Assembly: GCA_937902925.1 (NCBI GenBank)
Contig: CALFNN010000083.1
Span: forward strand, 1 to 64,000
Direction: 5' to 3'
DNA: 64,000 nucleotides
Origin: an uncultured Opitutaceae bacterium
GTDB taxonomy: Bacteria; Verrucomicrobiota; Verrucomicrobiia; Opitutales; Opitutaceae
How positions within the stretch are numbered: the stretch's first letter is position 1; every line of letters begins with the position of its first letter. The notes under the pieces are model-generated. The model was not told the DNA's origin. It saw nothing but the letters and a program-made list of their open reading frames with translations, and made no database searches. Below are positions 30,851 to 55,535 of this stretch, piece by piece. The translations under genes and the position numbers were made by a program.

Positions 30851-32923
30851 ATGACCTCACGATTTGTCCGCCCTTTTTTCCTCACCGCTGCGCTCGTCGC
30901 ATCGTTGGCCGCGCCGGCAGCGTCGCGTGCCGCCGGGATTCCGCCGCTGATGCTGGGCTCGGCGTGGTATCCCGAACAGTGGCCGGAGACGCGCTGGGAT
31001 GCAGACCTCGCGCTGATGCAGCAGGGCGGATTCAAGATGGTGCGCATCGGTGAATTTGCGTGGAGCAGTCTCGAGCCGTCCGAGGGAAAGTTCGACCTCG
31101 ACTGGATGGAGCGCGCAATTTCCGCCGCCGCCGCGCATGGGATCGTCACGATCATCGGCACGCCGACGGACGCCCCGCCGGCGTGGCTGACCTCGAAGTA
31201 TCCGGAGACGCTGCGCGTCGCGGAGGGCGGCCAGCGGATGGAGCACGGCATGCGCCGCCAGTTTTCCTATTCGAGTGCGAAATATCGCGAGTTGTGCCGG
31301 CTCATGGTCGAACAACTGGCGAAGCGGTTTGGCCACAACCCCAACGTCATCGCCTGGCAGATCGACAACGAATACACCGAGGATTCTTTCGACGACGAGT
31401 CGCGCGGACTCTGGCACCGCTGGCTCGAGGCGAAATACGGTTCGCTCGGCCAGTTGAACCAACAGTGGATGACGGCCTACTGGAGCCAGACCTACAGTGC
31501 ATGGGATCAGATTCCGATGAACACCGGTCGCAACAACCCGGGGCTGCTCCTCGACTACAAGCGGTTCGTCACCGACGAGTGGCGCGGGTTTCAGAAGAAC
31601 CAGCTCGACGTCCTTCGCCGCTACGTCGAACCCCGCCAGCTCATCACGACGAATCTCGGCGGCCTCGGCTGGGCGAACCGTTTCAACCGCCGCGTGATCG
31701 CCGGCGACCTCGATATCATCGGCTGGGATCCGTATGTGGGGCAGGGGCATTTCGACTACCAGCGGATTGGTGCGACGCACGATCTCGTGCGCGGCTGGCG
31801 GCGGCAGAATTTCTGGGTCCTCGAGATGCAGCCGGGGTTCGTCGACTGGGCGGGCGTCAGCAACTCACTCAACAAGGGTGAGACGCGCGCGATGATGTGG
31901 AACGCGGTCGGCCATGGCGCCGACTGCGTGTCGTTCTGGCAGTGGCGCGCGGGGCTCAACGGCCAGGAGCAATACCACGGCGTGCTCGTCGGCGCCGACG
32001 GCCAGCCGGTGCCGATGTATGACGAGATCGCGCAAGCCGGCGCCGAGTTTGCGAAGGTCGGCGCGGCGATCGCGGGCACTTCGCCTGAGGCGCAGGTGGC
32101 GATCCTGCACGACTACGACAGCCGCTGGTCGATCGATTTCCACAAGCAGACGAACCGGTGGGACAACGTCGACGTCCTGATGAGCTACTACCGACCGCTG
32201 CACGACCTCGCGCAATCGGTCGACATCGTCGACCCGACCTTTTCGCTGGATCGTTACAAGCTCGTCGTCGCACCCGGGCTGATCGTGATGTCGCCCGAAC
32301 TGGCGAAGCATCTGACGGACTATGTCGAGCAGGGCGGGCATCTCGTGCTTGGTCCGCGCTCCGGGATGATGAACGAGTTCAACGCGCTCAATCCCGAGCG
32401 GCAGCCCGGTCCGCTCGTGGCGGCGCTCGGCGGTCGCGTCGAGCAATTCTACGCGTTGCTCGAAGATGCGCCGGTTGCCGGCAAGTGGGGCAATGGCAGC
32501 GCGACGATCTGGGCCGAGCGGCTGTCGACGAAGACTGCGGACGCGGAGGTCGTCATGCGCTACGGCAAAAGCAACGGCTGGCTCGATGGCGAGCCGGCAG
32601 CGATCACGCGGAAAATCGGTCGCGGGACGATCACGTATGCCGGCGCGCTGTTCGACGCGCGGTTGACGCGCGCGATGACAGCGAGCCTGCTTGAGGCGAG
32701 CGGCGTCGCTCCCGCGCCGCTGGCCGTGCCCGAGGGCGTGGAAGTTTGCCGGCGGATCGGCGGAGGTCGCACGGTATTCATTGTGCTCAATTTTTCGAAC
32801 GCGGACCAAGCCATCGCATTGCCGCGGGCGATGCGGGACTTGCTGGCCGGCGGGGAAACATCGCGGGTCGTGCTGCCACGCTATGGCGTCGCCGTGTTGT
32901 CCGAGAACGGAGGAGCGCAATGA
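30851..32923 (+). CDS. GH42 beta-galactosidase
   Basis: A 690-residue enzyme with a signal peptide (MTSRFVRPFFLTAALVASLA), unusual because many GH42 enzymes are cytoplasmic. The TIM barrel begins MLGSAWYPEQWPETRWDADL and contains WQIDNEYTED with acid/base E174 and WVLEMQPGFVDW with nucleophile E325. A trimerisation-type domain (about 400-610) and a small C-terminal beta-domain follow, as in the family. Start chosen at the ATG at 30851, 10 bases after the GH2 stop. Its TGA overlaps the GH106 ATG, so the GH2, GH42 and GH106 genes form one transcript. It should release terminal beta-linked galactose, for example from galactan side chains. Confidence 0.95.
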   Translation: MTSRFVRPFFLTAALVASLAAPAASRAAGIPPLMLGSAWYPEQWPETRWDADLALMQQGGFKMVRIGEFAWSSLEPSEGKFDLDWMERAISAAAAHGIVTIIGTPTDAPPAWLTSKYPETLRVAEGGQRMEHGMRRQFSYSSAKYRELCRLMVEQLAKRFGHNPNVIAWQIDNEYTEDSFDDESRGLWHRWLEAKYGSLGQLNQQWMTAYWSQTYSAWDQIPMNTGRNNPGLLLDYKRFVTDEWRGFQKNQLDVLRRYVEPRQLITTNLGGLGWANRFNRRVIAGDLDIIGWDPYVGQGHFDYQRIGATHDLVRGWRRQNFWVLEMQPGFVDWAGVSNSLNKGETRAMMWNAVGHGADCVSFWQWRAGLNGQEQYHGVLVGADGQPVPMYDEIAQAGAEFAKVGAAIAGTSPEAQVAILHDYDSRWSIDFHKQTNRWDNVDVLMSYYRPLHDLAQSVDIVDPTFSLDRYKLVVAPGLIVMSPELAKHLTDYVEQGGHLVLGPRSGMMNEFNALNPERQPGPLVAALGGRVEQFYALLEDAPVAGKWGNGSATIWAERLSTKTADAEVVMRYGKSNGWLDGEPAAITRKIGRGTITYAGALFDARLTRAMTASLLEASGVAPAPLAVPEGVEVCRRIGGGRTVFIVLNFSNADQAIALPRAMRDLLAGGETSRVVLPRYGVAVLSENGGAQ

Positions 32924-35900
32924 GACACGCCCGCTTCATTCGCCGTCTGTGCGGCCTGCTGTCAGCGACCCTCGTTGCGGGAGTGTCCCCGGCGATAGGC
33001 CAGACCCAGGACGAACTCGAGGCGGGGTTCCGCCAGCCGCCGGCGAGCGCCAAGCCGCAGACGCTGTGGTTCTGGATGAACGGCAACGTCAGCCGCGACG
33101 GAATCACGCGGGACCTCGAGGCGATGCAGCGGGTCGGGCTCGGCGGGGCGTTGATGTTCGATGGCGGCACGTATTTGCCAGAAGGTCCGGCGAAATACCT
33201 GACGCCGGGCTGGCGCGAGCTGATGACCCATGCCGTCAAGGAGGCCGATCGGCTCGGGCTCACGCTGGGCATGCACAACGGCCCCGGCTGGTCGAGCAGC
33301 GGCGGTCCGTGGATCACGCCCGACCGCGCGATGCAACAACTGGTGTGGACGGAAACCGCGGTGCCGGGTGGGAAGGCGGTCGACGTCGTCCTCCGGCAGC
33401 CGCAAACGAACTTGGATTTTTACCGCGATGCTTTTGTGCTCGCGTTTCCCACGCCAGCGGCGGAGCAAACGCCCTATGCCGAGGCGCTGCGCGGCATCAC
33501 GACCGCGAGCGGCGGGAGCGTGCCGGCAACAGCGCTCAGCGACGGCGACCTGGCGACCAGCGTGGCGGTCACGCCGCAGGATTTCCTGCAATTCGAATTC
33601 GTGGCGCCGACGGAAATCCGGGCGATCACCGTGGCGCCGCGTCGCAATGGACGGTTTCCCAACGTGACCTTGGAAGCTTCCGACGATGGCGCGACTTACC
33701 GGCGGATCTGCGCGGTGACGAATCCCGGCCGGCACGGCATCCAGCCGGCGGGCGCCCAGAGTTTTCCGCCGGTGCGGGCGCGTTTCTTCCGCGCGGTGCC
33801 CAGCGGCGCGGGCGAACTGGCGGAGGTCGTGCTCCACCGCACCAGCCGGGTGGACGACTGGAACTTCAAGGGCAACTTCGCTTACCGCCTCGGCCACCAG
33901 ATGGAAATTCCGCCGCCCGGCAGCAGCGACGGCGCGATCGATCCGGCCACGGTGGTCGACGTCACAGCGCATCTCAGCCCCGACGGACATCTGCGGTGGA
34001 ACCCGCCGGCGAGAGCAGGCGCCGGCGGGTGGACGATCATGCGGGTCGGGTTCACGCCGACCGGTCAGCACAACATTTCCGCGTCGGCGGCGGGCGACGG
34101 CCTCGACTGCGACAAGTTCACCCAGGCGGCCGTGGATTATCATTTCGACCACGTGATCGCAAAAGTGCTGGCCGACGCGGGTCCGCTGGCCGGGAAGAGC
34201 TTCACGCTGGTGGAAATCGACAGCTACGAAGTCGGCATGCAAAACTGGTCGGCGGATTTTCCGGCGGAATTTCGGCGACGGACCGGCTACGATGTGCGTT
34301 CCTACCTGCCGGCGATGGCGGGCGGGCGGATCGTCGGTGATGCGGCGCGGACGGAACGGTTTTTGTTCGACGTGCGGCGCGTCCAGGCGGACCTGATGGC
34401 GGAGAATTATTACGGCCGGATGGAGGAGCTTTGCCGCGAGCACGGGCTGAAGTTTTACGTCGAGGGCTATGGCCAGGGCGTGTTCGACGAACTGCAGGTG
34501 AGCGGCGTGCCGGACTTTCCGATGACGGAGTTCTGGGAACGGACGCCATGGACGCCGAATCGCACGGTCAAGCTGGTGGCATCGGCCGCCCACGTTTACG
34601 GCAAGCCGGTGGTCGCGGCGGAGTCGTTTACCGGCGAGGAGGAGACGGCGCGTTGGGAGGAATATCCGTATTCGCTGAAAATTCTCGGCGACGAGATGTT
34701 CGGGCTCGGCGTCAACCAGATGTTTTTCCACCGGTTCGCGCAGCAGCCACATCCGAGCGCGGTGCCGGGCATGACGATGGGGCCGTGGGGATTTCATTTC
34801 GACCGGACGAACACGTGGTTCGAGCAAAGCGGGCCGTGGCTCGAATATCTCGCGCGCAGCCAGTTCCTGCTCCGCCAGGGCGCGTATGTCGCCGACGTGC
34901 TTTATTTCGTCGGCGAGCGCCCGCCGGATGTGGCCCAATACGCGATGCCGGTGTTGCCGCCCGGCTACAACTACGACCTGGCGAACGCCGAGGTGCTGCT
35001 CAACCGCGCCAGCGTGCGCGACGGCCGGATCGTGCTGCCCGGCGGCGCGAGCTACCGGCTGCTGATGCTGCCGCCCGACTTGAAATGCATGACGCCGGAC
35101 GTGATGGCGAAGGTGCGCCAGTTGGTCGCGGCGGGCGCGACGGTGCTCGGGCCGAAGCCCGAAAGTTCGCCGACCCTGCGCGGTTTTCCCGCCAGCGAAG
35201 CGGCGATGCGCGCCACCGCCGACGAGCTGTGGAGCGGGCGCGCCCTGGGTCGCGGACGCGTGATTGCGAATGAGTCGGTGGCGGATGCCTTGCGCGACAT
35301 CGGCGTCGCGCCGGATTTCGAATTTGCCTCGCGCCAGCCCGACACCGCGGTGTCGTGGCTGCACCGGAGACTAGCCGACGCGGACATCTATTTTGTCGCG
35401 AACCGCCAGCGGCGCGTCGACGAGATCACGGCGACGTTTCGCGTGGCAGGCCGCGAGCCGGAAATCTGGCAGCCGGAAACCGGCGAGATGAAACGCGCCG
35501 CAATCTACGCGCCGGACGGCGGCCGGGTGCGCCTGCCGTTGCGGCTTGGGCCGGCGGAGTCGGTGTTCGTCGTTTTCCGGCGGCCGGCGGGTTCGCCGGC
35601 GCAGGGACTCATGCGCGATGGCGTGCCGCTCATTTCGGCGAAGGCGCCGGCGGTGCATGAACGGTCGGCGGTATCGAACAACTTCACGATGAGTTTATGG
35701 GCGAAGCCGGACATCGATCTCCGCGTGATGCCGCGCGAATCCGCGACCGGCTCGATCGACGAGACTGGAAAATTCTACGCGATCCTGGCCGACGAAGGCG
35801 ACCGCGTGTTCGGCGCGGGTCACGCGACGGCGGGGCTCGCGATCGGTCGCAACGGCGTGTTGGTCGTGGAGCGGTCGAGCAAGGGTTTGCCGGCGGTGCT

Positions 35901-36936
35901 GGTGGCGCGGACGCCGATCGCCGGCTGGACGCATTTCGCGGTCGTGTATCGCGATGGGAAGCCGCGGCTGTTTGTCAACGGTCGGTTCGTCCGTGAAGGG
36001 CTCGCCTCCGGGAGCATCGTGCATCCGGGCATCGGATCGCCGCCGCCGATGCCGGGCGACTCGTTCAACTTTCCCGCGCTCGACTCGATGACGCGCACCT
36101 CCGGTCTCCCGCGTCCGCCGTCGCAGGGCATGGCGTTTTATTTTGAAGGCAACATGACGCCGCCGCAGCTCGTGGAGAGCGCGTTGTCCGACGAAGCCGT
36201 CGCGCAGCTCGCGGCACCAGGCCTGCCGCCCGAGGATGAGACACCGGACGCCGAACTCGCGCAACGCGACGACGGAAAGGCCGACGCGCTGATCTGGCAC
36301 TCCGGTTCCTACGCGCTCGGCCAAGGCAAGCAGGTGAACGTAACCGTCGCGGCGCCGGTCACGTTTGCCGGTCCGTGGCGGGTCGCGTTTCAGGGGAAGC
36401 GGGGCGCGCCGGCATCGGCGTCGTTTCCTCAATTGATTTCGTGGCATCGCAGCGCGGACGCCGGCATCAAGTATTTTTCGGGCATGGCGACTTACACGCA
36501 TTCGCTGGATGTGCCGGCGGATTTTGTTGGCGCAGAAAAACGGATTGTCCTCGATCTCGGTCGCGTGGAAATCATCGCGCGCGTCCGGATCAACGGCCGC
36601 GATCTCGGCATTCTTTGGAAGGAGCCCTACCGCCTCGACGTGACCGACGCCGTTCACACCGGCGCCAACGATCTGGAAGTCGCAGTGACGAACCTCTGGC
36701 CGAACCGATTGATCGGCGACGAGCAACTGCCGGCCGAAAACGACTATGCGACCGGCGGCGAGCACGGCATCCTGAAGCTGCCCGACTGGTATGCGAAGGG
36801 CGAGCCGAAGCCGCCGGGCGGGCGGATCACGTTTGCGACTTGGAAATTCTACACCAAGGACGAGCCGCTCTTCGAATCCGGGTTGCTCGGGCCCGTGCGC
36901 TTGCTCGATCCGGTGAGGTGCGTGCTCGGGAAATAG
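32920..36936 (+). CDS. GH106 alpha-L-rhamnosidase with inserted LamG-like domain
   Basis: A secreted 1338-residue inverting rhamnosidase, longer than the usual 1000-1150. The start ATG overlaps the GH42 stop and has AGGAG just upstream. After a signal peptide ending near SPAIGQ comes the family opening LWFWMNGNVSRDGITRDLEA (49-68) and GLGGALMFDGG. A discoidin-like segment occupies about 195-300. Catalytic candidates are E432 and E437 in VEIDSYEVG and E568 in VVAAESFTG. Residues about 905-1095 are an extra LamG/concanavalin-like domain (NNFTMSLWAKPD, then GWTHFAVVYRDGKPRLFVNG). A GH2-like sugar-binding domain ends the protein (VRINGRDLGILWKEPYRLDV). GH106 enzymes act on rhamnogalacturonan I and II, which supports a pectin role for this operon. 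Confidence 0.93.
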   Translation: MRHARFIRRLCGLLSATLVAGVSPAIGQTQDELEAGFRQPPASAKPQTLWFWMNGNVSRDGITRDLEAMQRVGLGGALMFDGGTYLPEGPAKYLTPGWRELMTHAVKEADRLGLTLGMHNGPGWSSSGGPWITPDRAMQQLVWTETAVPGGKAVDVVLRQPQTNLDFYRDAFVLAFPTPAAEQTPYAEALRGITTASGGSVPATALSDGDLATSVAVTPQDFLQFEFVAPTEIRAITVAPRRNGRFPNVTLEASDDGATYRRICAVTNPGRHGIQPAGAQSFPPVRARFFRAVPSGAGELAEVVLHRTSRVDDWNFKGNFAYRLGHQMEIPPPGSSDGAIDPATVVDVTAHLSPDGHLRWNPPARAGAGGWTIMRVGFTPTGQHNISASAAGDGLDCDKFTQAAVDYHFDHVIAKVLADAGPLAGKSFTLVEIDSYEVGMQNWSADFPAEFRRRTGYDVRSYLPAMAGGRIVGDAARTERFLFDVRRVQADLMAENYYGRMEELCREHGLKFYVEGYGQGVFDELQVSGVPDFPMTEFWERTPWTPNRTVKLVASAAHVYGKPVVAAESFTGEEETARWEEYPYSLKILGDEMFGLGVNQMFFHRFAQQPHPSAVPGMTMGPWGFHFDRTNTWFEQSGPWLEYLARSQFLLRQGAYVADVLYFVGERPPDVAQYAMPVLPPGYNYDLANAEVLLNRASVRDGRIVLPGGASYRLLMLPPDLKCMTPDVMAKVRQLVAAGATVLGPKPESSPTLRGFPASEAAMRATADELWSGRALGRGRVIANESVADALRDIGVAPDFEFASRQPDTAVSWLHRRLADADIYFVANRQRRVDEITATFRVAGREPEIWQPETGEMKRAAIYAPDGGRVRLPLRLGPAESVFVVFRRPAGSPAQGLMRDGVPLISAKAPAVHERSAVSNNFTMSLWAKPDIDLRVMPRESATGSIDETGKFYAILADEGDRVFGAGHATAGLAIGRNGVLVVERSSKGLPAVLVARTPIAGWTHFAVVYRDGKPRLFVNGRFVREGLASGSIVHPGIGSPPPMPGDSFNFPALDSMTRTSGLPRPPSQGMAFYFEGNMTPPQLVESALSDEAVAQLAAPGLPPEDETPDAELAQRDDGKADALIWHSGSYALGQGKQVNVTVAAPVTFAGPWRVAFQGKRGAPASASFPQLISWHRSADAGIKYFSGMATYTHSLDVPADFVGAEKRIVLDLGRVEIIARVRINGRDLGILWKEPYRLDVTDAVHTGANDLEVAVTNLWPNRLIGDEQLPAENDYATGGEHGILKLPDWYAKGEPKPPGGRITFATWKFYTKDEPLFESGLLGPVRLLDPVRCVLGK

Positions 36937-36952: not shown

Positions 36953-39900
36953 TCAGAGCTGCACGGCATTGTTCATGGTTGTGATCTCCTCGAGTTGGTG
37001 CCCGGAATCCAACTCGACACTCGCGCCGTCGGGCGCGGAACCGGCGGGAAGGAGCAACTCGATATCCGCAGTCTTCGGGAAAAGGTCCACGGGCGCCGGA
37101 ATCGCAGGCACCGCGGCCGTGGCGACGATCCGGCCCGCGTGGTCGCGGATTGCGAGCGTCGAGGCCGGGGCGTCGACCGAACCGAGGCTGTGGACGCGGA
37201 CGCGCACCGATCGACCGTCGATGCGGACGTCGCTGCGCTCAAGGCCGAGATCGGGCCGCTGCCAGTAGGGTGTGCCGGGTGTCTTCAGCTTGAACGTGAG
37301 CACGGTCGTGGCTCGCGGAGCGAACGTGAGGTCAACCGAGCGCGAGCGTTCGAACGGGGCGCTCCACGAGGCAATCGCCTGGTCGGCCGCATCCGCGCCG
37401 GTGGTGTCGATGCCTTGGGAGATTTCCCACATGCCCGGATCGATATTCCAGCCGGTCATGGTCGCATGCACGGGCAGCCCGTCGAGGTTGTAGGCGACTA
37501 CCTTGAAGGCCGTTCCGGTTGCGCTGGGAATCAGGATCGCGAGGCTCTGGTCGGAGGCGGGGGCGCGGAACTGCCAGCTCACGACATGGCCGGGATAGGT
37601 GCCGTTGCGCACGAGCGCGATGCCGCCGAGCCGGGCGCGCTGCAGGTCGGCATGGTGCACGCCGACGCGATCGATCCAGATGCTGCCCTCCGTGTTGATG
37701 TAGTCCATCATCGACGCCTCGGCGATCTGCGCGGCGTAGAGGCGCTCGAGGTAGTGCTTGTCACCCGTGACCTGCCACGCGAGGAAGCCGGTCGAGGCGT
37801 TGCGATATTCGCTGGAGCGCGACTTTTCGAGGTAAGCGCCCACTTGTTTTGGATCCGCAAGATTCTCGGCGTCCGCGACGACCCGCGGTCCCCACGTGGC
37901 TCGCAGACCGGCGAGATCGAGCATGTCCGCGTTGACGGTGGTAACGGCGCCGACGCCGCCGTCGAGGATCGGATCGAGGTAGCGGGCGGCGCCCGACCAT
38001 TTCCACGCCGACCAATACAACGGCCAGGGAAAGTAGTTGTGCCGGACGTTTTGCGCGATGTCGGTCTGGTATTGGATGCCGGAGGGAATCTCGAACTGGC
38101 CCTTCTCGTTCTGGCGACGGTGGGCGAGCTGGCTGTCGGCGAGTTCCATGATGACTTTCTTCGCGGCGGGATTGCCATTGAAGTCGACGAGGAGCTCGCC
38201 GGGCTGGAGGACGAGATTCGAATAACCGCGCGACCAGCCCCACACGCCCTCCTCGGCCATCTTGGTGCCGCTATAGTAGGCGGTCTTGAAATGCCGGTGG
38301 CCCGCGGCGTTGATGCCCGTAAGTCCGGCGACGCCGCGGGCGGTCTCCATCGCCCGTTCGAGGATCACAGGGTTGCCGTAGTCGAGAACCATGTTCTGAC
38401 CGATGCAATTGATGCCCTCCTCGAAGCTATGGAGGTAGTCCGCCTGGATCGTGGGCAGGCCATTCGTGAACATGCCGTTCTTGTAGGCGGCATCGAGGAG
38501 CGCGCGATCGGAGCGACGGATTTTTTCCGGGATGCAGCCCATCAGCGCGGTGCCCGGCCACGAGTTGAGCAGGTCGACGTCGTCGGAGATGCCGCCGCCG
38601 AAATCGCCGTAGGGGACCTGCCGGTTGTCGATATACCATTCGACGAAATGCTTCAACTGGCCGAGCAGCGTCACCTGCTGGTAAGCCCAGAGCGGCACGC
38701 CGGCGGGCGGCGGTGGCGGCTGGTAGGTCGGCAGCTCGCCAGAGATCGCCGCGGCGTAGTAGGAGCGACCGGGGTTGTGGTTCGGGTCGACGCGGATCAG
38801 ATCGTTGATGTCGCCCTCGAAGCGGTTCCACAGATTCAGCCTGTGGTTCCCCTGAGGATGCTCCTCGACGAGCATGGCGTAGCTGTCGCGCGCCTCGGTG
38901 AAACGATCGAGCGCATGCTCGGCGATGGCGGCCTCGCGCGGTTTGAAGACGAGACGGAGCTTCGCGCCGGCGAGTGACGCAGCGCCAAATTCGCCACTCG
39001 CCGAGACGATCGTGAGGTAGAGACCCTTGCCGGCGGGGAGCACGCGGTCGCGCAAGTCGAGCCACAGCGTCTTCGCCTCGCCGGGTTTTACGCTGAATGT
39101 GAAGTCGAGCATGTTGCGCGCGGGCCAGAGCGGGTCTTTCACCTGGATGTTGAGCGGAATGAGGCCGTGGTGAGTTGGCTGCACCGTGAGTGCGGGCAAA
39201 TCGAGCGCGATGCCGTCGAGTCCACCGGCCACATCATCCAGCCGATAGGCGGCGGTGGCCGACTCGGTTGGGATCAAAACGTGGACGATGGGTAGTGCGG
39301 GCACGCCGACGCCGGCGACAGCAGCCGGCGGGGGGAGGGCCGTGCCGACGGGTTGGGCGACGAGGGTCGCGCGTTCGTCGGCGGCGAACCGACCGGCGAT
39401 GAACGTTTGCAGCGGCTGCAGGCTGGCCGTCGCGGGAGCGGCCGCCGTGAGGCGATACTCCAGCTTCGCGCTGCCGGCCGGTTCGCGACCGACGGTGACA
39501 TCGTAGGCCGCGAGTTCGCCGATCGGCTCCTCCGCTTCGACGTTGGTGAACCGGATTTTCTGGCCGACGATGGCGTGGTCGAGCTGGTGCACTGTTTTTT
39601 CCTGACCCTTGGGCCGCTCGAAAAGCAGCGAGCGGGCGGGCGCGTCGTTGGCATCGTCGGCGTCGAGCAGGCTCATCGAGCCCCACGCGGAGCCGGAGAT
39701 TTCAAGGTGATTCCAAGGTTCATCCGGTAGATAGAATGTGACCGACTTGCCCGACTCGACGTAGCAATCCCAGTCGGGGAGCGTGAAATAATCGCGACGG
39801 CCAGGAATCCGGGAACGGTTGTAGACACCGGGCCAGGTCGTCTCGCGGATGCCGTCGCAGGCTTTCCACCACCACCGTTTGAGATCGTAGGCCTCGTGGA

Positions 39901-40801
39901 TTTCCACTTTGCGCACGCTGACCGCGGCGTCGGCGAGGTAGGGTGGTGGATCGTCCGGGCGGTTCCAGCCGTAGCGGAACCACCATTCGTCGCGCCAGCG
40001 GCCGTCGGATAAATTGCGGGGCGGCAGCGGGGGCAGCGTGGTGACTGCGTCGCCATAGGCGAGCGTGGCGACCGCGGCATCGTCCAGCATGCGGTCGTAG
40101 ATCCGCACTTCGTCGAGGTCGCCGCCGCGGGTGAAGTTGTAGTCGCTCTGGACGTTATAGGGACTGATGATGCGCGAGTGCGGGCCGAACTGGTCCAGGC
40201 CGGCGTTGAGAATCACCGTGGTCTCCTGCGAGGCGGCGAGCTTGCCGTTGACGTAGAAACGGATGCCGCGGGTTTCATCCCACGCGAGCGCGAGATGGGT
40301 CCATTCATTGGGCTGGGCAAACGGCTGCAGCGGCACCGAGACGCGGATGCGCGCAAGGCTCGCATCGGTGACGAACGCATCGAAGCCATGGCCGTTATAA
40401 TCGATCCGCAGCCAGACCATGTCCCAACTGGAGTGGTCGGAGTAGCTGACGCGGAAGATGGGAAATTCCGTCGGCCCGACTGGATAACGCGAGCGCCAGA
40501 AAAACGAGAGCGTGCCGCGCTGGGCATAGATGTTGCCGGGCGCCCAGTAGGAAAGCAGTTGGTCGTCGCTGCAGCTCAACCCGGCGCCCTTTGCGCCGTC
40601 GGCGACGGGCGTGATCTCGGCCTCGTAGTTTGGCTTGGCGGTTTGGGGCGCCGCCACGTCCGCAGTCGTCCCGTGTTCGCCCGAGAGGTAGAACAAGAGC
40701 CCGGGCTCCGCGCCAGCAATGGTGTGGGTCGCCCACGCAAGACCGACGGCTGTGACAACGGCCCGGAGACCGCGAATATTGTGCGCGTGCAGGGGTAGCA
40801 T
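36953..40801 (-). CDS. Large secreted LamG / alpha-helical / CARDB protein, possible new hydrolase or lyase
   Basis: A 1282-residue secreted protein that I cannot place in a family. The ATG at 40801 gives a signal peptide (GLRAVVTAVGLAWATHTIAG); a TTG at 40843 would add 14 residues. Residues about 32-250 are a LamG-like beta-sandwich (QRGTLSFFWRSRYPV, WTHLALAWDETRGIRFYVNG, GGDLDEVRIYDRML). Beta-rich regions follow to about 600. Residues about 640-1000 look like an (alpha/alpha) barrel with aromatic and acidic motifs, including VPYGDFGGGISDDVDLLNSW and HSFEEGINCIGQN. The C-terminus (about 1165-1282) is CARDB/Ig-like. This layout fits a secreted glycan-cleaving enzyme. It is convergent with GH106 (16 bases apart) and divergent from GH28 over 118 bases. 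Confidence 0.82.
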   Translation of the reverse strand: MLPLHAHNIRGLRAVVTAVGLAWATHTIAGAEPGLLFYLSGEHGTTADVAAPQTAKPNYEAEITPVADGAKGAGLSCSDDQLLSYWAPGNIYAQRGTLSFFWRSRYPVGPTEFPIFRVSYSDHSSWDMVWLRIDYNGHGFDAFVTDASLARIRVSVPLQPFAQPNEWTHLALAWDETRGIRFYVNGKLAASQETTVILNAGLDQFGPHSRIISPYNVQSDYNFTRGGDLDEVRIYDRMLDDAAVATLAYGDAVTTLPPLPPRNLSDGRWRDEWWFRYGWNRPDDPPPYLADAAVSVRKVEIHEAYDLKRWWWKACDGIRETTWPGVYNRSRIPGRRDYFTLPDWDCYVESGKSVTFYLPDEPWNHLEISGSAWGSMSLLDADDANDAPARSLLFERPKGQEKTVHQLDHAIVGQKIRFTNVEAEEPIGELAAYDVTVGREPAGSAKLEYRLTAAAPATASLQPLQTFIAGRFAADERATLVAQPVGTALPPPAAVAGVGVPALPIVHVLIPTESATAAYRLDDVAGGLDGIALDLPALTVQPTHHGLIPLNIQVKDPLWPARNMLDFTFSVKPGEAKTLWLDLRDRVLPAGKGLYLTIVSASGEFGAASLAGAKLRLVFKPREAAIAEHALDRFTEARDSYAMLVEEHPQGNHRLNLWNRFEGDINDLIRVDPNHNPGRSYYAAAISGELPTYQPPPPPAGVPLWAYQQVTLLGQLKHFVEWYIDNRQVPYGDFGGGISDDVDLLNSWPGTALMGCIPEKIRRSDRALLDAAYKNGMFTNGLPTIQADYLHSFEEGINCIGQNMVLDYGNPVILERAMETARGVAGLTGINAAGHRHFKTAYYSGTKMAEEGVWGWSRGYSNLVLQPGELLVDFNGNPAAKKVIMELADSQLAHRRQNEKGQFEIPSGIQYQTDIAQNVRHNYFPWPLYWSAWKWSGAARYLDPILDGGVGAVTTVNADMLDLAGLRATWGPRVVADAENLADPKQVGAYLEKSRSSEYRNASTGFLAWQVTGDKHYLERLYAAQIAEASMMDYINTEGSIWIDRVGVHHADLQRARLGGIALVRNGTYPGHVVSWQFRAPASDQSLAILIPSATGTAFKVVAYNLDGLPVHATMTGWNIDPGMWEISQGIDTTGADAADQAIASWSAPFERSRSVDLTFAPRATTVLTFKLKTPGTPYWQRPDLGLERSDVRIDGRSVRVRVHSLGSVDAPASTLAIRDHAGRIVATAAVPAIPAPVDLFPKTADIELLLPAGSAPDGASVELDSGHQLEEITTMNNAVQL

Positions 40802-40850
40802 AAGAGGGGAAAGAAAGCTTCGCCCGGGCAAAGGGGCGCGCAAGAATTAA

Positions 40851-40860
40851 GACACGTGTC
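40851..40860. promoter_or_regulatory. Palindrome GACACGTGTC in a divergent promoter
   Basis: A perfect ten-base palindrome centred on CG, set in AT-richer sequence (AATTAA before, GTTTTGA after). It lies between the large LamG protein gene (start 40801, minus) and the first GH28 gene (start 40920, plus). A CG-centred palindrome fits a LacI-family operator. It differs from the GGATTAC motif of module A, so a different regulator would be needed; none is encoded here. Confidence 0.5.
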
Positions 40861-40919
40861 GTTTTGACTTCCCGACAGTTCGATTTCGGCCACGCTCGGC
40901 AAACGTCTTCCCATTCCTC

Positions 40920-42230
40920 ATGAATCGATTTGTCCGTCTGGTGTGTGTTTGGACCGTCCTGGCCGTGTTCGTTGCCGCGCCGGCGTCCGCGCGGGTCTTC
41001 AACATCGCGTCCTACGGCGCGGTGAACGATCCGGCAGCGTCGAGCAGCGATGCTTTCCGCCGCGCCATCGCCGCTTGCCACGCCGCCGGCGGAGGCACGG
41101 TGGAGGTTCCGGCGGGTCGCTATCTCACCGGGCCGATCGACATGGTCGACAACATGACCCTGCAGATCGACCGCGATGCCGTCGTGCTGTTCGTGACGGG
41201 TCGCGAGAATTATCCCGACATTTCCTCCCGCTGGGAAGGGCAGACGGAAACGGGCCCGCATCCGCTGCTCTTCGCCGACGGGTTGCACGACATCGCCATC
41301 ACCGGCGCGGGCACGATCGACGGTCAGGGCGCCCCGTGGTGGAAGGACATGGACATGGCGGAGCGAGGCAACGCGCGCCCGAACCGCCCGATCCGCCGCC
41401 GTCCGCCGCTCGTGCAGATCCGGAATTGCGACCACGTCCGGATCGACGGCCCGACCTTCACGAATTCGCCGTTCTGGGCGATCCATCTCCTCTACAGCGA
41501 GAATATCGATGTTGGCAACTGCCGCATCATCAACCCGCCGAATTCGCCCAATACCGACGCGTTGAACACGGATTCGTGCCGCCACGTCGTGGTCCATGAC
41601 TGCTTCGCGGACGTCGGCGACGACGGCTTCGGCATCAAGTCGGGCCGCGACGAGGAGGGCCGGCAGATGCACCGCCCGACGGAGGACGTTACTTACATCC
41701 GCTGCCATGTGGCGCACGCGCACAGCGTCTGCGCGATCGGCAGCGAGGAATCCGGCGACGTCCGGCACGTCCGCTTCATCGACTGCGATGGCGAGGGCAC
41801 CGACAACGGCATCCGCATCAAGAGCACACGCGGCCGCGGTGGCGTGGTCGAGGATGTGGTGGCTTCGAACATCCGGCTAAAGAACGTCGGCACCGCCATT
41901 GTGCTGTCGATGCATTACACGCGGACGCCACCCGAGCCGTTTTCCGAGCGCACGCCGGTCTTTCGCAATATTTCCATCGACCATCTCACGGCGACGAACG
42001 TGAAGAAATGCTGCACCATCGAGGGACTGGAGGAACATCCGATCGAGAACATCACGCTGGACGACATCACTCTTTCGGGGACGACGGGCGTCAGTTGCTC
42101 CTACGCGAAGGACGTTACGTTCAAGAATGTGACCGTGACCGCCCAGCGCGCGCCGTGGACGGAGGACCATTCGGAGAATGTGCAGCGACTTGGCTGGAAG
42201 GAAAGCGCCGCCAGTTCCGCCACGCCCTGA
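40920..42230 (+). CDS. GH28 polygalacturonase-family protein
   Basis: A 436-residue secreted beta-helix hydrolase for galacturonan or rhamnogalacturonan backbones. The signal peptide ends near PASARVFNIASYGA, and that last segment is the typical GH28 start. Catalytic motifs are present: SPNTDALNTD with the NTD at 211-213, VGDDGFGIKSG with D234 and D235, HAHSVCAIGSEESG with H268, and GIRIKS with R299 and K301. The motifs are nearly canonical, so activity is likely, most probably exo-acting given the inserted loops. It begins the plus-strand pair of GH28 genes; the next starts 59 bases later. Confidence 0.93.
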   Translation: MNRFVRLVCVWTVLAVFVAAPASARVFNIASYGAVNDPAASSSDAFRRAIAACHAAGGGTVEVPAGRYLTGPIDMVDNMTLQIDRDAVVLFVTGRENYPDISSRWEGQTETGPHPLLFADGLHDIAITGAGTIDGQGAPWWKDMDMAERGNARPNRPIRRRPPLVQIRNCDHVRIDGPTFTNSPFWAIHLLYSENIDVGNCRIINPPNSPNTDALNTDSCRHVVVHDCFADVGDDGFGIKSGRDEEGRQMHRPTEDVTYIRCHVAHAHSVCAIGSEESGDVRHVRFIDCDGEGTDNGIRIKSTRGRGGVVEDVVASNIRLKNVGTAIVLSMHYTRTPPEPFSERTPVFRNISIDHLTATNVKKCCTIEGLEEHPIENITLDDITLSGTTGVSCSYAKDVTFKNVTVTAQRAPWTEDHSENVQRLGWKESAASSATP

Positions 42231-42289
42231 GGCGCAGGCGCTCGGCCGCGTCCGTGTTGTTGTCCAATCTGTCCGCCGTTTTCTTAATC

Positions 42290-43795
42290 ATGAATTCCCT
42301 CACACGTTTTGTTTCACTCGGATTTGCCTCGGCAGTGTGTGCGGCCACGAGTCTCCCGGCTGCGACGCTCGAAAGTTACCTTGCTTCGGCGCCGTTCAAG
42401 ATGCCGATGGTGCCGGTGCCATCGTTTTCCGACCGGCGGTTTCCGATCACCGACTTCGGCGCCGTCGGCGACGGACATACGCTCGACACCGCGGCCTTCG
42501 CCAAGGCAATCGATGCCTGTGCCGCGGCGGGCGGTGGACATGTCATCGTGCCGGCCGGGCTCTGGCTCACGGGGCCGATCGCGCTCAAGAGCACCGTCGA
42601 TCTCCACGCCGAGCGGGGCGCGCTGGTGCAGTTCACGTCCGATCACACCGCCTATCCGATGGCGCCGCGCGATGACCGCGGCCTCTACGCCGCCTCCTGC
42701 CTCAGTGCCGTCGGGCAGCGCGACTTTGCGCTTACCGGCGATGGCATCTACGACGGCGCGGGAGACACGTGGCGTCCGGTGAGAAAGACGAAGACAACCG
42801 ACGCCGAGTGGCAGCGGCTGCTGGCAAAAGGGGGCGTGACCAGCAACGAGGGCACGAATTGGTGGCCGACCAAGGAAGCCATGACGGGCGAGGACTATCT
42901 GGCCGAACTGGCGAAAAAGACTGCGCATCCAACCGCCGAGGAGATGCTGCCGGCGCGCGATTTCCGACGCTCGGCGATGGTCGCCTTCACCGGTTGCGAC
43001 GACGTGCTGGTCGAGGGGGTGACGCTACGCAATTCGCCGAGCGGGCTGTTTGTGCCGGCGCGCTGCACCAACCTCACGGTGCGCTACGCGACGCTCTTGA
43101 ACGAGTGGTCCGCACAGAACGGCGACGGCATGGACATCGGCCCGTGCAAGAATGTAGTGGTTTATCGCTGCACGGTCAGTGCCGGCGACGATGCGATCTG
43201 CATGAAGGCGAGCGGCAAGAGTCCGTGGCCGGGCGAACCGGGACTGCAGAATGTGATCGTGGCGGAGTGCACCGTTTACCGCGGGCACGGCGGTTTCGTC
43301 GTGGGCGGCACCACCGAGGGCGGCATGCAAAACCTCTGGGCGACCCAGTGCGATTTCGACGGGACCGATGTCGGAATTCGCGTCAAGAGCGGACTCGGCC
43401 ACGGCGGGCTCGTGCACGACGTCTTCGTCGACCACGTCTACATGAAAGACATCCTGAATGAGGCGATCCTGTTCGACACGTTCTACGACAATGCGCCGGT
43501 CAGCGCGGCGACGGTGAAGGTTGCCCTGAGTCGCGACCCGGCGAAGACGCCCGAATTCCGCGACTTTCTCCTGCGCGATATTTATTGTCTCGGGGCGGGC
43601 TCGGCGATTGCCATCCGGGGACTGCCGCAGCAGCCGGTGCACCGGATCACGATCGAACATACGACCATCACGGCGCGTCGAGGCTTCCGGGCCACGGACG
43701 CCGCGGACATCACGTTGCAGCAGGTCAAGATCAACGCCACCGAAACCCCGGCGGTCGTCGAAAAAGACACCCGTAACATCAGGATTGTCGACTGA
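42290..43795 (+). CDS. GH28 family protein (second copy)
   Basis: A 501-residue secreted beta-helix hydrolase, longer than its neighbour because of an insertion at about 160-225 (RKTKTTDAEWQRLLAK to EEMLPARDF), a loop common in exo-polygalacturonases. The start at 42290 gives the signal peptide MNSLTRFVSLGFASAVCAAT. Motifs: NGDG at 277-280 in place of NTD, AGDDAICMKASG with D300 and D301, RGHGGFVVGG with H333, and GIRVKSG with R364 and K366. All catalytic positions are kept. Sequence differs clearly from the 40920 gene, so this is not a recent duplication. It probably trims galacturonate from chain ends. Confidence 0.93.
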   Translation: MNSLTRFVSLGFASAVCAATSLPAATLESYLASAPFKMPMVPVPSFSDRRFPITDFGAVGDGHTLDTAAFAKAIDACAAAGGGHVIVPAGLWLTGPIALKSTVDLHAERGALVQFTSDHTAYPMAPRDDRGLYAASCLSAVGQRDFALTGDGIYDGAGDTWRPVRKTKTTDAEWQRLLAKGGVTSNEGTNWWPTKEAMTGEDYLAELAKKTAHPTAEEMLPARDFRRSAMVAFTGCDDVLVEGVTLRNSPSGLFVPARCTNLTVRYATLLNEWSAQNGDGMDIGPCKNVVVYRCTVSAGDDAICMKASGKSPWPGEPGLQNVIVAECTVYRGHGGFVVGGTTEGGMQNLWATQCDFDGTDVGIRVKSGLGHGGLVHDVFVDHVYMKDILNEAILFDTFYDNAPVSAATVKVALSRDPAKTPEFRDFLLRDIYCLGAGSAIAIRGLPQQPVHRITIEHTTITARRGFRATDAADITLQQVKINATETPAVVEKDTRNIRIVD

Positions 43796-46653: not shown

Positions 46654-47787
46654 TCAGCGCAGCAGGGCGTCGACGCACCACAGCATCGGCGCCTGACCAT
46701 GCAAGTCTCCCGTCACGCGTTGCCGGGTAAGATAGTATTCACGGTCATTCTTCTTGTTCGTGCTTTCGCAAACGTCCCGAAGGGCGCCGTCGGGCTCGAG
46801 ACGACTCACGAGTGCGAGCCAGCCCCGGCGCGCCGCCGGGGCGTAAGTGTCGGCCTCGAGCCAGCCATGCTTGACGCCGGAAATGAAGGCGAAGGTGAAC
46901 ATGGCGGTGCCGGACGATTCCGGGAACGACTGTGGCTCGTCGAGGAGCTGGTGCCACATGCCCTCCGCATCCTCGGCCGCCCGGAGGGCCGCCATCATCT
47001 TTCTGTAGCCGGCGAGAATGCGTTCGCGGCGGGGATGATTCGCCGGCAGGGAGGAGAGCAGTTCGGACATCCCGGCGGCAAACCAGCCGTTGCCGCGAGC
47101 CCAATAGAAGGGGGTGTCGGGTGCGTGCAGGAAAAGTCCGTTCGGCTGCTGGAGTTTGTCGAGGTAGGCGACCGCCTCCGCCGCCGCCCGGTCGAGGTAA
47201 CGTTGGTCATGCGTGGCTCGATAAGCCTGCGTCTGGAGCATCGTGATCATATACATGTCATCGATCCAGAAGCGGGTGTGCCAGCTGAGCCCGCCACGGA
47301 CCGCCTCGCGGGCCTCCGGGCTCAGTTCGTTTTGATCGACTGGGGTGGTCCATTGCCGGTCGGCCAGGTCGAGACCGAGCTTCCGGTAGCGCTCGTCCCG
47401 GGTCTGCCGATAGAGCTCGAGTGGCAGGGCGCCGAAGACGGCGTAATCTACGTTGGTGGGCGGAGGGATCAACTGGGCTTGCGGTCCCAGCAGGGATTCA
47501 AACCGCGCGACGAGTCGCTCGGTCAGATCGTGCTCGTGGGTCAGTTGGGCAAACTGCAGCGCTCCATACCAGGCGCAGGTCTCCGCGTAGTGCATCACCG
47601 GCGGCTTGCTGGTAAGGCGGAAGTCGTGGCTGAGGAATCGCTCGGTGATCCGTCGTCCGATTACTGCCGGCGCCGCGCCGCTTGGCCACGGCCCGGAAAG
47701 CGGGTCGCCCGCGGCGCGGACGGGCAGGGTCGCCGAAAAGCCGACGATGATAATGAGGGCGACGCGAAACGAAGGGAATGGATTCAT
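46654..47787 (-). CDS. GH105 unsaturated rhamnogalacturonyl hydrolase-type enzyme
   Basis: A 377-residue protein with a signal peptide (VALIIIVGFSATLPVRAAG) and an (alpha/alpha)6 barrel. Family marks are NVDYAVFG with D114, WHTRFWIDDMYM with D176 and D177, and FYWARGNGWFAAGM at 227-240. GH105 enzymes hydrate and split off the 4,5-unsaturated uronyl residue left by a polysaccharide lyase, so a lyase must act upstream; the candidate in this module is the beta-helix protein at the right edge of the window. It lies 28 bases after GH28 and 13 before GH31. GH88 is a related alternative but the motif set fits GH105 better. Confidence 0.9.
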   Translation of the reverse strand: MNPFPSFRVALIIIVGFSATLPVRAAGDPLSGPWPSGAAPAVIGRRITERFLSHDFRLTSKPPVMHYAETCAWYGALQFAQLTHEHDLTERLVARFESLLGPQAQLIPPPTNVDYAVFGALPLELYRQTRDERYRKLGLDLADRQWTTPVDQNELSPEAREAVRGGLSWHTRFWIDDMYMITMLQTQAYRATHDQRYLDRAAAEAVAYLDKLQQPNGLFLHAPDTPFYWARGNGWFAAGMSELLSSLPANHPRRERILAGYRKMMAALRAAEDAEGMWHQLLDEPQSFPESSGTAMFTFAFISGVKHGWLEADTYAPAARRGWLALVSRLEPDGALRDVCESTNKKNDREYYLTRQRVTGDLHGQAPMLWCVDALLR

Positions 47788-49682: not shown

Positions 49683-51770
49683 TCAATCAGCGGGCTGCAG
49701 GGTCACGATCGACCGAATCGCCGGATATCTCGTGCCCGACTTCCGAATCCTCACCACGACTTCCCGCTTTGCACCCTCCGATGTGCTTGGGGCGAGTTCG
49801 GTTTCGTAACGGCCCTGCGCGCCGTAACGCACTTCACGCGCCCGGCCGTCGCACTCGAGAAGAAAGCCGTCCGACTGCGAGGGATCGCCGGTGATGACCA
49901 GCCGACAGGGACCCTGCGCGGGCGCGGCCAGCCGACATTCGATAAATCCATTGGGGAAAACGCGGTTGCCTGCGAACCGCACCGGCCAGCCTCGCTCTAG
50001 TCGCGCATGGCTCGCGTGCATGTAGCGAACGACACGGATATCGTCTACCAATCCCCCGCACACGATTGAATCGATCACGCCCGGCTGGCCGCGGCACTCG
50101 TTCCGTTCGGCCAGTTCCGCCTCATAGTGGGGCGTCAGCTGTTCGACAAGGCACCACAGCGGGCGAATATACGCTCGCGCCACGGAATCCTCGATTTCGT
50201 CGTGATCGCCGTATTCGTGCCCATGTTTTTCCGCCGACGATTTCGCCGGGGTCGTGGTGGTGGCCGTGCATCCCGGCAGGGACCGCTCGAACTCCACCCG
50301 GGCGGTCGCGACGGCACGCCGGAGGTTCGGATGCAGCGGCTCGTGGCCTTCGATGTCGTCGAAATAAGCGCAAACGCAGCGACACCATTCGCGAATGAGG
50401 CGGGTCACGACCACGGCGTTCTCCCATGCCGTGCGCGCCATCTGCGCTTCCGCGGAGGGCAACTGCGCGGCGAGGGAGCGCAGCGCCCGTAATGATTCGT
50501 CGGCCATCCGCACGGCCTCGTCTTTCTCCGCGAGCAGCGCGGCCCGCGTCGGAGTCGTGCGCTCGGGCAGGATGCCCCACATGCCTTGGTGGTGGGCAAG
50601 CGATATCCCTGGCGTGAAGACCGAGAGAATGCCGCACGCCTGGAGCCATTTCCAGGACGGATCGATGGGAAAGGCGTGGAAGATGACGTGGCCATCGATG
50701 AAATGGCATTTTTTCACCATTTCGATGCCGCGACGCATCACCGCGGTCATCTCCGCCGGACAACGCGGCCACTGCCGTTCCGCCCACTGCCGCCAGATTT
50801 CGTCTGCGGTGACGCACGGTTCATGGATCGCGCGATCGAATGCGAGCAAGTTGACCGCCTGCGTCGAATCGAACGTCGCGTGGCCAATGCGATCGACCCG
50901 GATCGCATGGCGGTCGACGCCACAGTCCTTCGCAAAGCGCACGCCGGCGATAACCCGCTCGGGATCAGCCGCGGGCAGGAAGCCCGCGCCGAGGAACTCG
51001 CCGAGCGAATCGTATTCGGCGGACCGCGTGAAGCGCCCGGTGCGCTGCAAGTAGCGATTGAACGGCAGAAACGGGCTGAAGTCATACGGCGTGATCTTCG
51101 TTTCGACTTCGAAAGCGAATTGCGCGTCGACCGCACTCGCGCCGGCGATGATATCCTCATAATCTTGTGGCACGGAGCCGAAGCTCCGAAGGACGAAACG
51201 CTTTTTCAGCCGCTGCAGTTCCGCGGCGAACGTGGTCACGACGTGCGCCACCACCTGCGCCGGAGGATAGCGCCGGGGATTGGAATTGTGGATCACCGAG
51301 TAGTCCGACTCGGTCACTGTCAACACGAGCCCGTCCATCTCCGGCACCTCGTCGAAGAACTCGCGGATCTTCGAGCGGAGCAGGTCGTGATAGACCGCCC
51401 CGAGCAGGTCAAATTCGCCCGTCTCGTCGAGGAGGCCGGGCACCGATTCGACGATCTCCCGCGGCACCATCACTTCCCGATGCCAGTAAACGATCGGCCG
51501 GCCGGAGGCATCGGCGAGTGCGGCGAGTTTGCGCAGGGCTTGGATGTTTTTGTCCCGCGCCGCCAGATCCAGCCGGATCGCGACCGCCGGATAGTCGCGA
51601 AACCGAATCGCACCGTCGAGGCTGCCGAGCGACGTGTGGGCTTCACCGCAGACCTCGAAGCTGTCCACGCGATAGGCCCCGGCGGCTGTGACAATGGCGC
51701 GCATGTTTGCCGCGTCGAGTTTGCTCGGATGCAGGATGGACCAGGTGATTTCGGGCGCGGTGGTTTTCAA
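49683..51770 (-). CDS. Cytoplasmic TIM-barrel-like protein of unknown function
   Basis: A 695-residue protein with no signal peptide and no family I can name. It starts MKTTAPEITWSILHPSKLDA. Several segments look like strand ends of a glycosidase-type barrel: YRVDSFEVCGEAH, GRPIVYWHREVMVP, MDGLVLTVTESDYSVIHNSN, KRFVLRSFGSVPQDYE, FAFEVETKITPYDF, and RSAEYDSLGEF. The acidic residues at these ends (for example E in LTVTESDY and E in FEVETK) could be catalytic. The arrangement recalls GH67-type alpha-glucuronidases, but I see no decisive motif. Helices occupy about 400-560, with a beta-domain at the C-terminus. It follows the symporter gene by 36 bases, so it may cut the imported oligosaccharide in the cytoplasm. 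Confidence 0.8.
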   Translation of the reverse strand: MKTTAPEITWSILHPSKLDAANMRAIVTAAGAYRVDSFEVCGEAHTSLGSLDGAIRFRDYPAVAIRLDLAARDKNIQALRKLAALADASGRPIVYWHREVMVPREIVESVPGLLDETGEFDLLGAVYHDLLRSKIREFFDEVPEMDGLVLTVTESDYSVIHNSNPRRYPPAQVVAHVVTTFAAELQRLKKRFVLRSFGSVPQDYEDIIAGASAVDAQFAFEVETKITPYDFSPFLPFNRYLQRTGRFTRSAEYDSLGEFLGAGFLPAADPERVIAGVRFAKDCGVDRHAIRVDRIGHATFDSTQAVNLLAFDRAIHEPCVTADEIWRQWAERQWPRCPAEMTAVMRRGIEMVKKCHFIDGHVIFHAFPIDPSWKWLQACGILSVFTPGISLAHHQGMWGILPERTTPTRAALLAEKDEAVRMADESLRALRSLAAQLPSAEAQMARTAWENAVVVTRLIREWCRCVCAYFDDIEGHEPLHPNLRRAVATARVEFERSLPGCTATTTTPAKSSAEKHGHEYGDHDEIEDSVARAYIRPLWCLVEQLTPHYEAELAERNECRGQPGVIDSIVCGGLVDDIRVVRYMHASHARLERGWPVRFAGNRVFPNGFIECRLAAPAQGPCRLVITGDPSQSDGFLLECDGRAREVRYGAQGRYETELAPSTSEGAKREVVVRIRKSGTRYPAIRSIVTLQPAD

Positions 51771-55510: not shown

Positions 55511-55535
55511 GATGGGGCGACCACGGGCGTTTGAG

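Follow-up and report, generated by a model that had tools for sequence, protein, structure and literature searches.

The window analysed here, a 64,000-nucleotide stretch of contig CALFNN010000083.1 from an uncultured Opitutaceae bacterium, contains the gene of a large protein, P0001, which a first-pass annotation had put forward as the candidate founder of a new glycan-active family. As described there, the 1282 residues of P0001 are encoded by one unbroken frame, which proves to lie on the minus strand (36953..40801, ATG at 40801, stop at 36953), and the protein begins with a leader, a basic and hydrophobic N-terminus that can be regarded, by inspection only, as a putative export signal (about residues 1–34, 40700..40801; this and all further parts of P0001 lie on the minus strand). 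The expected LamG (concanavalin-like) domain (about residues 30–252, 40046..40714) was recognized by Pfam as Laminin_G_3 over residues 130–245 (E 8.5e-12, 45.9 bits against a cut-off of 27.6) and also by fold, the best match of model residues 6–229 being AbnA, an arabinanase of glycoside hydrolase family 43 (GH43), with a Z score of 17.9; a DUF346 stretch remained below the Pfam threshold (E 0.027). A second beta-sandwich region (about residues 267–455, 39437..40003), defined by alignments and the model, carries the strongly conserved RWWWK..DGIRETTWPGVYNRSR, and a third (about residues 505–600, 39002..39289) is seen in the predicted secondary structure. These are followed by a helical region (about residues 614–1060, 37622..38962), whose toroid proper, about residues 702–1056 according to AlphaFold and fold comparison, is the putative catalytic module, and by a beta sheet containing W1076 (about residues 1074–1165, 37307..37582), delimited by the AlphaFold models and the alignment. 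The C-terminus (about residues 1180–1282, 36956..37264) may be called CARDB-like, as had been suggested, on account of its relatives only: six of 45 match CARDB (PF07705, best Pfam E 1.5e-6), whereas P0001 itself does not at E <= 1.

P0001 is not a chance frame, since a second copy with 65% identity lies elsewhere in the same genome and near-full-length orthologues with 57–66% identity occur in other genera of the family; a third copy, split over contig ends, is apparently present in the same genome. A module profile made from three rows (A1) matched 25 of the 120 genomes sampled from the taxonomic family and, in a phylum sample of 387 with only three candidates scored per genome, 15, one match in each sample being weak (E ~1e-4) and carrying an internal stop. 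A scan of species genomes with one pattern returned 194 stretches, 160 of which code for relatives. Of these, the best 80 were retained; by their record titles they bear about twelve phylum-level names: Verrucomicrobiota, Alphaproteobacteria, Planctomycetota, Bacteroidota, Acidobacteriota, Calditrichota, Latescibacterota, Hydrogenedentota, Myxococcales, Neomarinimicrobiota, Armatimonadetes and Ignavibacteriales. Two kinds of architecture can be distinguished, a long LamG form in Opitutae and Alphaproteobacteria and shorter forms. In a tree of the module (43 rows, quick method), the long forms make up a clade with support 100, composed of 10 Opitutae rows, the window protein and one alphaproteobacterial clade of eight (support 99), apart from 24 short forms; the latter retain the whole module (533–575 residues aligned) and have other N-terminal parts or none. 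P0001 accordingly belongs to a broad family in which several architectures occur and is not its lone founder, and what stands of the earlier designation is that no Pfam or NCBIfam model covers the barrel.

The middle of the protein, read in the first-pass annotation as an (alpha/alpha) barrel, is predicted to form an (alpha/alpha) toroid of six or seven hairpins. For residues 24–1180 (51-row alignment), AlphaFold gave a predicted local distance difference test score (pLDDT) of 85.7 and a predicted template modelling score (pTM) of 0.87. The LamG jelly roll dominated a fold search with this model of 1157 residues (AbnA and clostridial neurotoxin binding domains, the latter sharing just the jelly-roll fold with P0001). 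The search was uninformative on the barrel, which was for this reason predicted alone (residues 612–1150, 43 rows; pLDDT 90.5, pTM 0.90). In the resulting model, about 14 alternating helices form the toroid, with three extra helices before it and a beta sheet after it. Foldseek placed a glucose-2-epimerase first (E 2.5e-4), with GH76 (2.7e-4) and GH47 (7.6e-4) among the matches, while VIA gave a Z score of 16.2 for GH76 (280 residues, root mean square deviation 3.7, 8% identity), 15.7 for Lin0763, 15.3 for an uncharacterised Brucella protein, 15.1 for the GH88 unsaturated glucuronyl hydrolase (UGL; 1vd5), 14.1 for the AprG transaldolase, 13.6 for GH47, 13.3 for GH105 (4xuv), about 13 for epimerases and 12.5 for YteR (1nc5). 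The GH76, GH88 and GH105 alignments cover 272–298 residues. The nearest solved folds are those of GH76, GH88/GH105 and sugar epimerases, with Z scores of 12–16 and 5–11% identity. It may be added that a stretch of the second beta-sandwich region, RWWWK..DGIRETTWPGVYNRSR..GR.DYF.LPDWDCY (residues 309–347, window 39761–39877), is nearly completely invariant in 11 long forms and mostly retained in the alphaproteobacterial consensus, and that despite this conservation it mostly has a pLDDT below 50 (model 288–321).

The profile search and structure prediction that the first-pass annotation had called for on this part of the protein yielded, besides the toroid model and the conserved acidic residues described below, no convincing family match. 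The barrel of P0001 was matched by no Pfam and no NCBIfam model, the two libraries compared, in line with the missing family signature noted earlier; the whole protein had no match in NCBIfam or among PDB sequences, and hmmsearch of PDB with the profiles A4 and A10 gave nothing convincing, the best matches being a helical protein over 87 profile positions (E 0.0018) and 4mu9 over about 50 (E 0.01). When 45 diverse members were compared with Pfam, LamG and CARDB were matched by six each, a galactose-binding-like domain by three and GH88 weakly by one (PF07470, E 0.0024; no match in P0001), every remaining family by one member, with 16 families in all at E 0.01; PF03663 (GH76) was not among the matches of these relatives at E <= 0.01. 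No NCBIfam family was matched by more than two of the 45, among the 25 of 35 families listed. Match positions are known for P0001 only; that the barrels of the other members also lack a model is deduced from these low counts. Profile–profile comparison with hhalign failed both for six GH76 sequences (probability 5.3%) and for nine GH88 sequences of the same genome (5.9%). A literature search at the level of titles and abstracts found no published description of the barrel family, which at that level does not prove its absence. The family is probably unnamed relative to Pfam, NCBIfam and PDB sequences, the CAZy and dbCAN models lying outside this comparison. From the fold matches and the failed profile–profile comparison, the barrel would belong to the same fold class as GH76 and GH88 but form a separate family.

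A small set of residues is strictly conserved in the module. With all 80 kept loci added to the module alignment, W705, G736, D740, D741, W748, G781, D788, H791 and E794 are identical in every row; D1044, R1045 and W1076 are identical in the 75 rows that reach them (five have a gap), and R727 is kept in 76 of 80. The search pattern included the DD and W748, the remaining invariant positions lying outside it, and D740–D741 is likewise unchanged in 23 of 23 rows collected independently of the pattern. This Asp pair (38579..38584), contained in the acidic-aromatic motif VPYGDFGGGISDDVDLLN quoted in the first-pass annotation, lies just before the first inner helix, D788..H791..E794 (38420..38440) at the start of the second, and D1044–R1045 (37667..37672) before a later one. 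In the predicted structure the invariant polar residues are found in loops leading into inner helices or in their first turns, on one face of the toroid, the face on which known toroid enzymes have their active site; R727/Q728 is placed at the end of, or after, an outer helix by predicted secondary structure. Acidic residues make up the majority of the invariant polar set. H791 is the single invariant His (45-row and 43-row alignments), and no Tyr is invariant, Y681 being nearly so.

The gene lies, as had been noticed, between a rhamnosidase and two GH28 genes. On one side it converges with a GH106 alpha-L-rhamnosidase gene (32746..36936, plus strand, PF17132 E 1.9e-216), the ends of the two genes being 16 bases apart, and on the other side 118 bp separate it from a divergent GH28 gene (40920..42230, plus strand, PF00295 E 1.7e-40), which is followed by a second GH28 gene identified by Pfam (42239..43795, plus strand, start approximate). 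A GH88/GH105-type gene (46654..47787, minus strand, PF07470 E 2.6e-55) lies further on, and the wider cluster comprises a TonB receptor, GH2, GH42, GH106, the two GH28, GH31, the GH88/GH105-type protein, a beta-helix GH28-like protein and a sodium symporter; the genome has 10 GH88/GH105 matches. In a genome of another genus (G085), an 81% homologue of P0001 and an 83% homologue of the second GH28 are divergent neighbours, so that the pair is kept across genera. The cluster also holds a 695-residue frame without Pfam match (49686–51770, minus strand), which was considered as a short-form paralogue and rejected, the A10 profile finding long copies only in this genome; a 576-residue frame (53879–55606, minus strand) beside the sodium symporter gene likewise has no Pfam match.

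The divergent promoter ascribed to the gene was not found: in a scan of 40700–41000, the sole sigma-70-type site lies on the plus strand, towards GH28, and there was none on the minus strand for P0001. A perfect palindrome, GACACGTGTC, is present upstream of the gene as a candidate operator (40851..40860, no strand assigned; single exact copy in the window). In the window and in G085 its distance to the start codon is about 50 bp, whereas in L073 it immediately precedes the gene; L187 (16260–16269) and L073 (6814–6823) each have a single exact copy. The variant GACACGTATC is found near the starts of the paralogue on the genome's own contig C69 and of the L082 and L086 genes. The palindrome is not general, being exact in three, present with one mismatch in three and absent in 32 of 38 long-form loci. 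Upstream of the target gene in four alphaproteobacterial loci (L099, L100, L107 and L181) there is another palindrome around ACCGGT, GACACCGGTGTC in L099, which by eye resembles a LacI operator.

Among relatives, the gene setting differs between loci. In Brevundimonas abyssalis, a gene for a 541-residue protein resembling polysaccharide lyase family 10 (PL10; E 1.7e-27, partial profile) begins about 70 bp downstream of the target, and homologues of this protein occur in four of 15 alphaproteobacterial loci, B. abyssalis included, several of the loci being short contigs; its equation with the GH43 protein of Novosphingobium capsulatum proved wrong. The 53 neighbour proteins of six alphaproteobacterial loci include TonB plug (six) and PL10 (two), among the 25 of 66 families listed, with UxaC, altronate dehydratase, mannitol dehydrogenase and TRAP parts as single members. 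In N. capsulatum, altronate dehydratase, uxaC, mannitol dehydrogenase, a sugar kinase, kduD, kduI, a TonB receptor and GH43 form a hexuronate island, with the target and a small LamG gene, overlapping by 4 bases, at its end. Two GH3 genes lie 31–39 kb from the target, and over about 64 kb to each side the annotation of this plasmid record, for which the PLSDB gene table is incomplete and some genes are hypothetical, shows no PL, GH28 or GH105 gene. For the short forms, the comparison covered 82 of the 135 neighbours predicted (from 11 of the 18 loci) and recognized GH88 (four), GH28 (three), GH20 (three) and sulfatases (two), among the 25 of 89 families listed. One of these GH88 matches, in L113, belongs to a separate toroid family of 420 residues, which is conserved near four short forms (L113 6202–7449, L117 16328–17584, L118 14629–15897, L135 12909–14171) and gives weak, mixed Pfam matches to GH88, GH127, GH76 and C5-epimerase. 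In the genomes reached via loci, PL10 is present in 20 of 21 with long forms and GH28 in 29 of 36, being absent from four alphaproteobacterial ones (G492, G496, G498 and G499).

The small LamG gene recurs. It encodes a partner of about 220 residues, with a leader recognized by eye and a LamG domain. Such a gene is found no more than about 3 kb from the long form in 15 of 22 verrucomicrobial loci, and also next to the C69 paralogue and in N. capsulatum, where its product is 43% identical to an Opitutae copy (for example L158, on the genome's own contig C69, 5008–6228, and L182, 21768–22451). In total it accompanies 17 of 42 long-form loci, only one of 18 alphaproteobacterial ones among them, some loci being too short to judge. 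As it is absent beside both the window gene and its relative L073, the branch of the window seems to have lost it.

The guess that P0001 represents a new glycan-active family is plausible in the light of these data. The explanation we prefer, to which we give about an even chance, is that P0001 belongs to an unnamed family of glycoside hydrolases and is secreted to act on a galacturonate-containing (pectin-type) chain. The toroid (about residues 702–1056) plus the C-terminal sheet would then be the catalytic module, and the LamG domain, the other beta-sandwiches and the CARDB-like end would anchor the protein on, or direct it to, an insoluble or branched chain. The module would hydrolyse a glycosidic bond of this chain; the roles of acid and base or nucleophile would fall to the carboxylates D740/D741 and D788/E794, which sit on two adjacent inner helices, and H791, R727, D1044–R1045 and the invariant Trp residues would bind the uronate. 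Its mode of action would resemble that of the GH76, GH88 and GH105 toroid hydrolases, without membership in these families by sequence. In favour of this explanation are the predicted fold, the conservation and position of the polar residues, the pectin-related genes around P0001 and, often but not in every locus, around its relatives, the PL10-like gene of B. abyssalis, the hexuronate island of N. capsulatum and the GH28 pair kept in another genus. GH28 is found in at least five of 19 short-form loci, compared with 0.22 expected from genome counts, and all 19 long-form genomes of the family sample contain it, versus 72 of 101 others (p 0.003); for PL10 the counts are 14 of 19 and 50 of 101 (p 0.044).

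Several observations weigh against this explanation. Helical models commonly score about 13–14, and the leading Z values exceed this only slightly; unrelated functions also appear among the leading VIA rows (7tkv, 15.3; AprG transaldolase, 14.1). In the sequential structural alignment, the Asp pair of GH76 and D88 of UGL appear to fall on the second inner helix and not at D740–D741, as judged from alignment ranges and residue numbers rather than coordinates, and the catalytic roles proposed above are uncertain for this reason. Of the five short-form loci with GH28, three belong to Chitinophagaceae and are not independent. The tests on the family sample ignore kinship and genome size; the 19 long-form genomes include fragmentary copies (G105 and G122), and the 101 include the divergent G116 as well as G030, which has long-form fragments and no GH28. 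The locus of Sphingomonas sp. R1 is devoid of pectin genes and has GH68, alpha-galactosidase, GH2 and GH3 instead, in Asticcacaulis sp. AND118 a GH28-related gene is present but no nearer than about 12 kb from the target, and the Opitutae neighbours are mixed, with one PL10 and one GH78 among 80 proteins from eight loci (among the 25 of 101 families listed).

A polysaccharide lyase with a toroid fold, such as an exo- or endo-pectate lyase in which H791 and an Arg (R727 or R1045) would provide proton abstraction and charge neutralization, appears unlikely, even if the single invariant His and an invariant Arg would suit it and many toroid folds are lyases. The N. capsulatum island speaks for elimination, since it contains kduI and kduD, whose substrates derive from unsaturated uronates, yet the GH43 protein and the target are the only annotated candidate depolymerases inside it. 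On the other hand, the fold matches listed are mostly hydrolases and epimerases, and hydrolysis is favoured over elimination because acidic residues dominate the invariant polar set and no Tyr is invariant.

Within hydrolysis, P0001 might by function be an unsaturated galacturonyl hydrolase, trimming the products of PL10 or other lyases by a GH88/GH105-like hydration of the 4,5-unsaturated end. The rank of UGL among the leading folds would be consistent with such a role, as would the PL10-like gene that adjoins the target in some alphaproteobacteria, the weak GH88 match of one relative and the two acidic clusters 48–54 residues apart on neighbouring inner helices, a gap that we take to resemble the two-Asp spacing of UGL and YteR. 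We nevertheless regard this role as quite improbable: GH88/GH105 genes are already present in the same cluster and genome, the profile–profile comparison with nine of them fails, and the size of P0001 together with its LamG and CARDB-like parts fits a polymer better than an oligosaccharide. A sugar epimerase is very unlikely, as is a surface protein that binds glycans with an enzyme fold but has no catalytic activity, in spite of the glucose-2-epimerase that heads the Foldseek matches and of the several domains of carbohydrate-binding type. AGE-type epimerases use two catalytic His, and a two-His epimerase is disfavoured by the single invariant one; a mere binding protein would not be expected to preserve acidic residues, a His and an Arg without change in members that bear about twelve phylum-level names.

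It is tempting to go further and to consider, as a tentative possibility, a widespread family of toroid enzymes whose catalytic residues would be its own, with DD ahead of one inner helix, DxxHxxE on the following one and DR ahead of a later inner helix. Such enzymes would cut a pectin linkage assigned to no described family, the long form acting together with a co-inherited small LamG partner and serving in Novosphingobium as the main depolymerase of the hexuronate/kduI–kduD island. A glycan-active role would mean a CAZyme-like family with at least 160 relatives and about twelve phylum-level names among 80, and that the pectin clusters of Opitutae and Alphaproteobacteria are read incompletely without it. 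The invariant residues and the recurring partner make the function directly testable, and homologues exist in the cultured species Niveispirillum irakense, N. capsulatum and Chitinophaga rupis.

The systems closest to P0001 share its fold more than its sequence. The GH76 alpha-1,6-mannanases (BcGH76 and Salegentibacter GH76A) have the toroid fold that is predicted for P0001 (Z 16.2) and, likewise, an adjacent Asp pair before a Trp-containing helix, which is mutated in structure entries labelled 'inactive', although the helix after D740–D741 may not be the one that follows the pair in GH76; they differ by an identity of 5–11%, the absence of a PF03663 match, the hhalign probability of 5.3% and the setting, which for P0001 is one of pectin and not of mannan. 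The GH88 unsaturated glucuronyl and GH105 unsaturated rhamnogalacturonyl hydrolases resemble P0001 in fold (Z 15.1, 13.3 and 12.5) and in their uronate-polysaccharide setting, but share 5–9% identity and an hhalign probability of 5.9% with it and have chains of about 380 residues, as compared with 1282 in P0001 with its LamG, sandwich and CARDB-like parts. AGE-type sugar 2-epimerases, the first Foldseek match with Z of about 13, stand apart by 11% identity and by the one invariant His and the leader peptide of P0001. The same family is encountered in three plasmid records (42–44% identity over 97–98%), where it is visible in annotation just as 'LamG domain-containing protein', a name that covers the N-terminal accessory domain only and is silent on the barrel.

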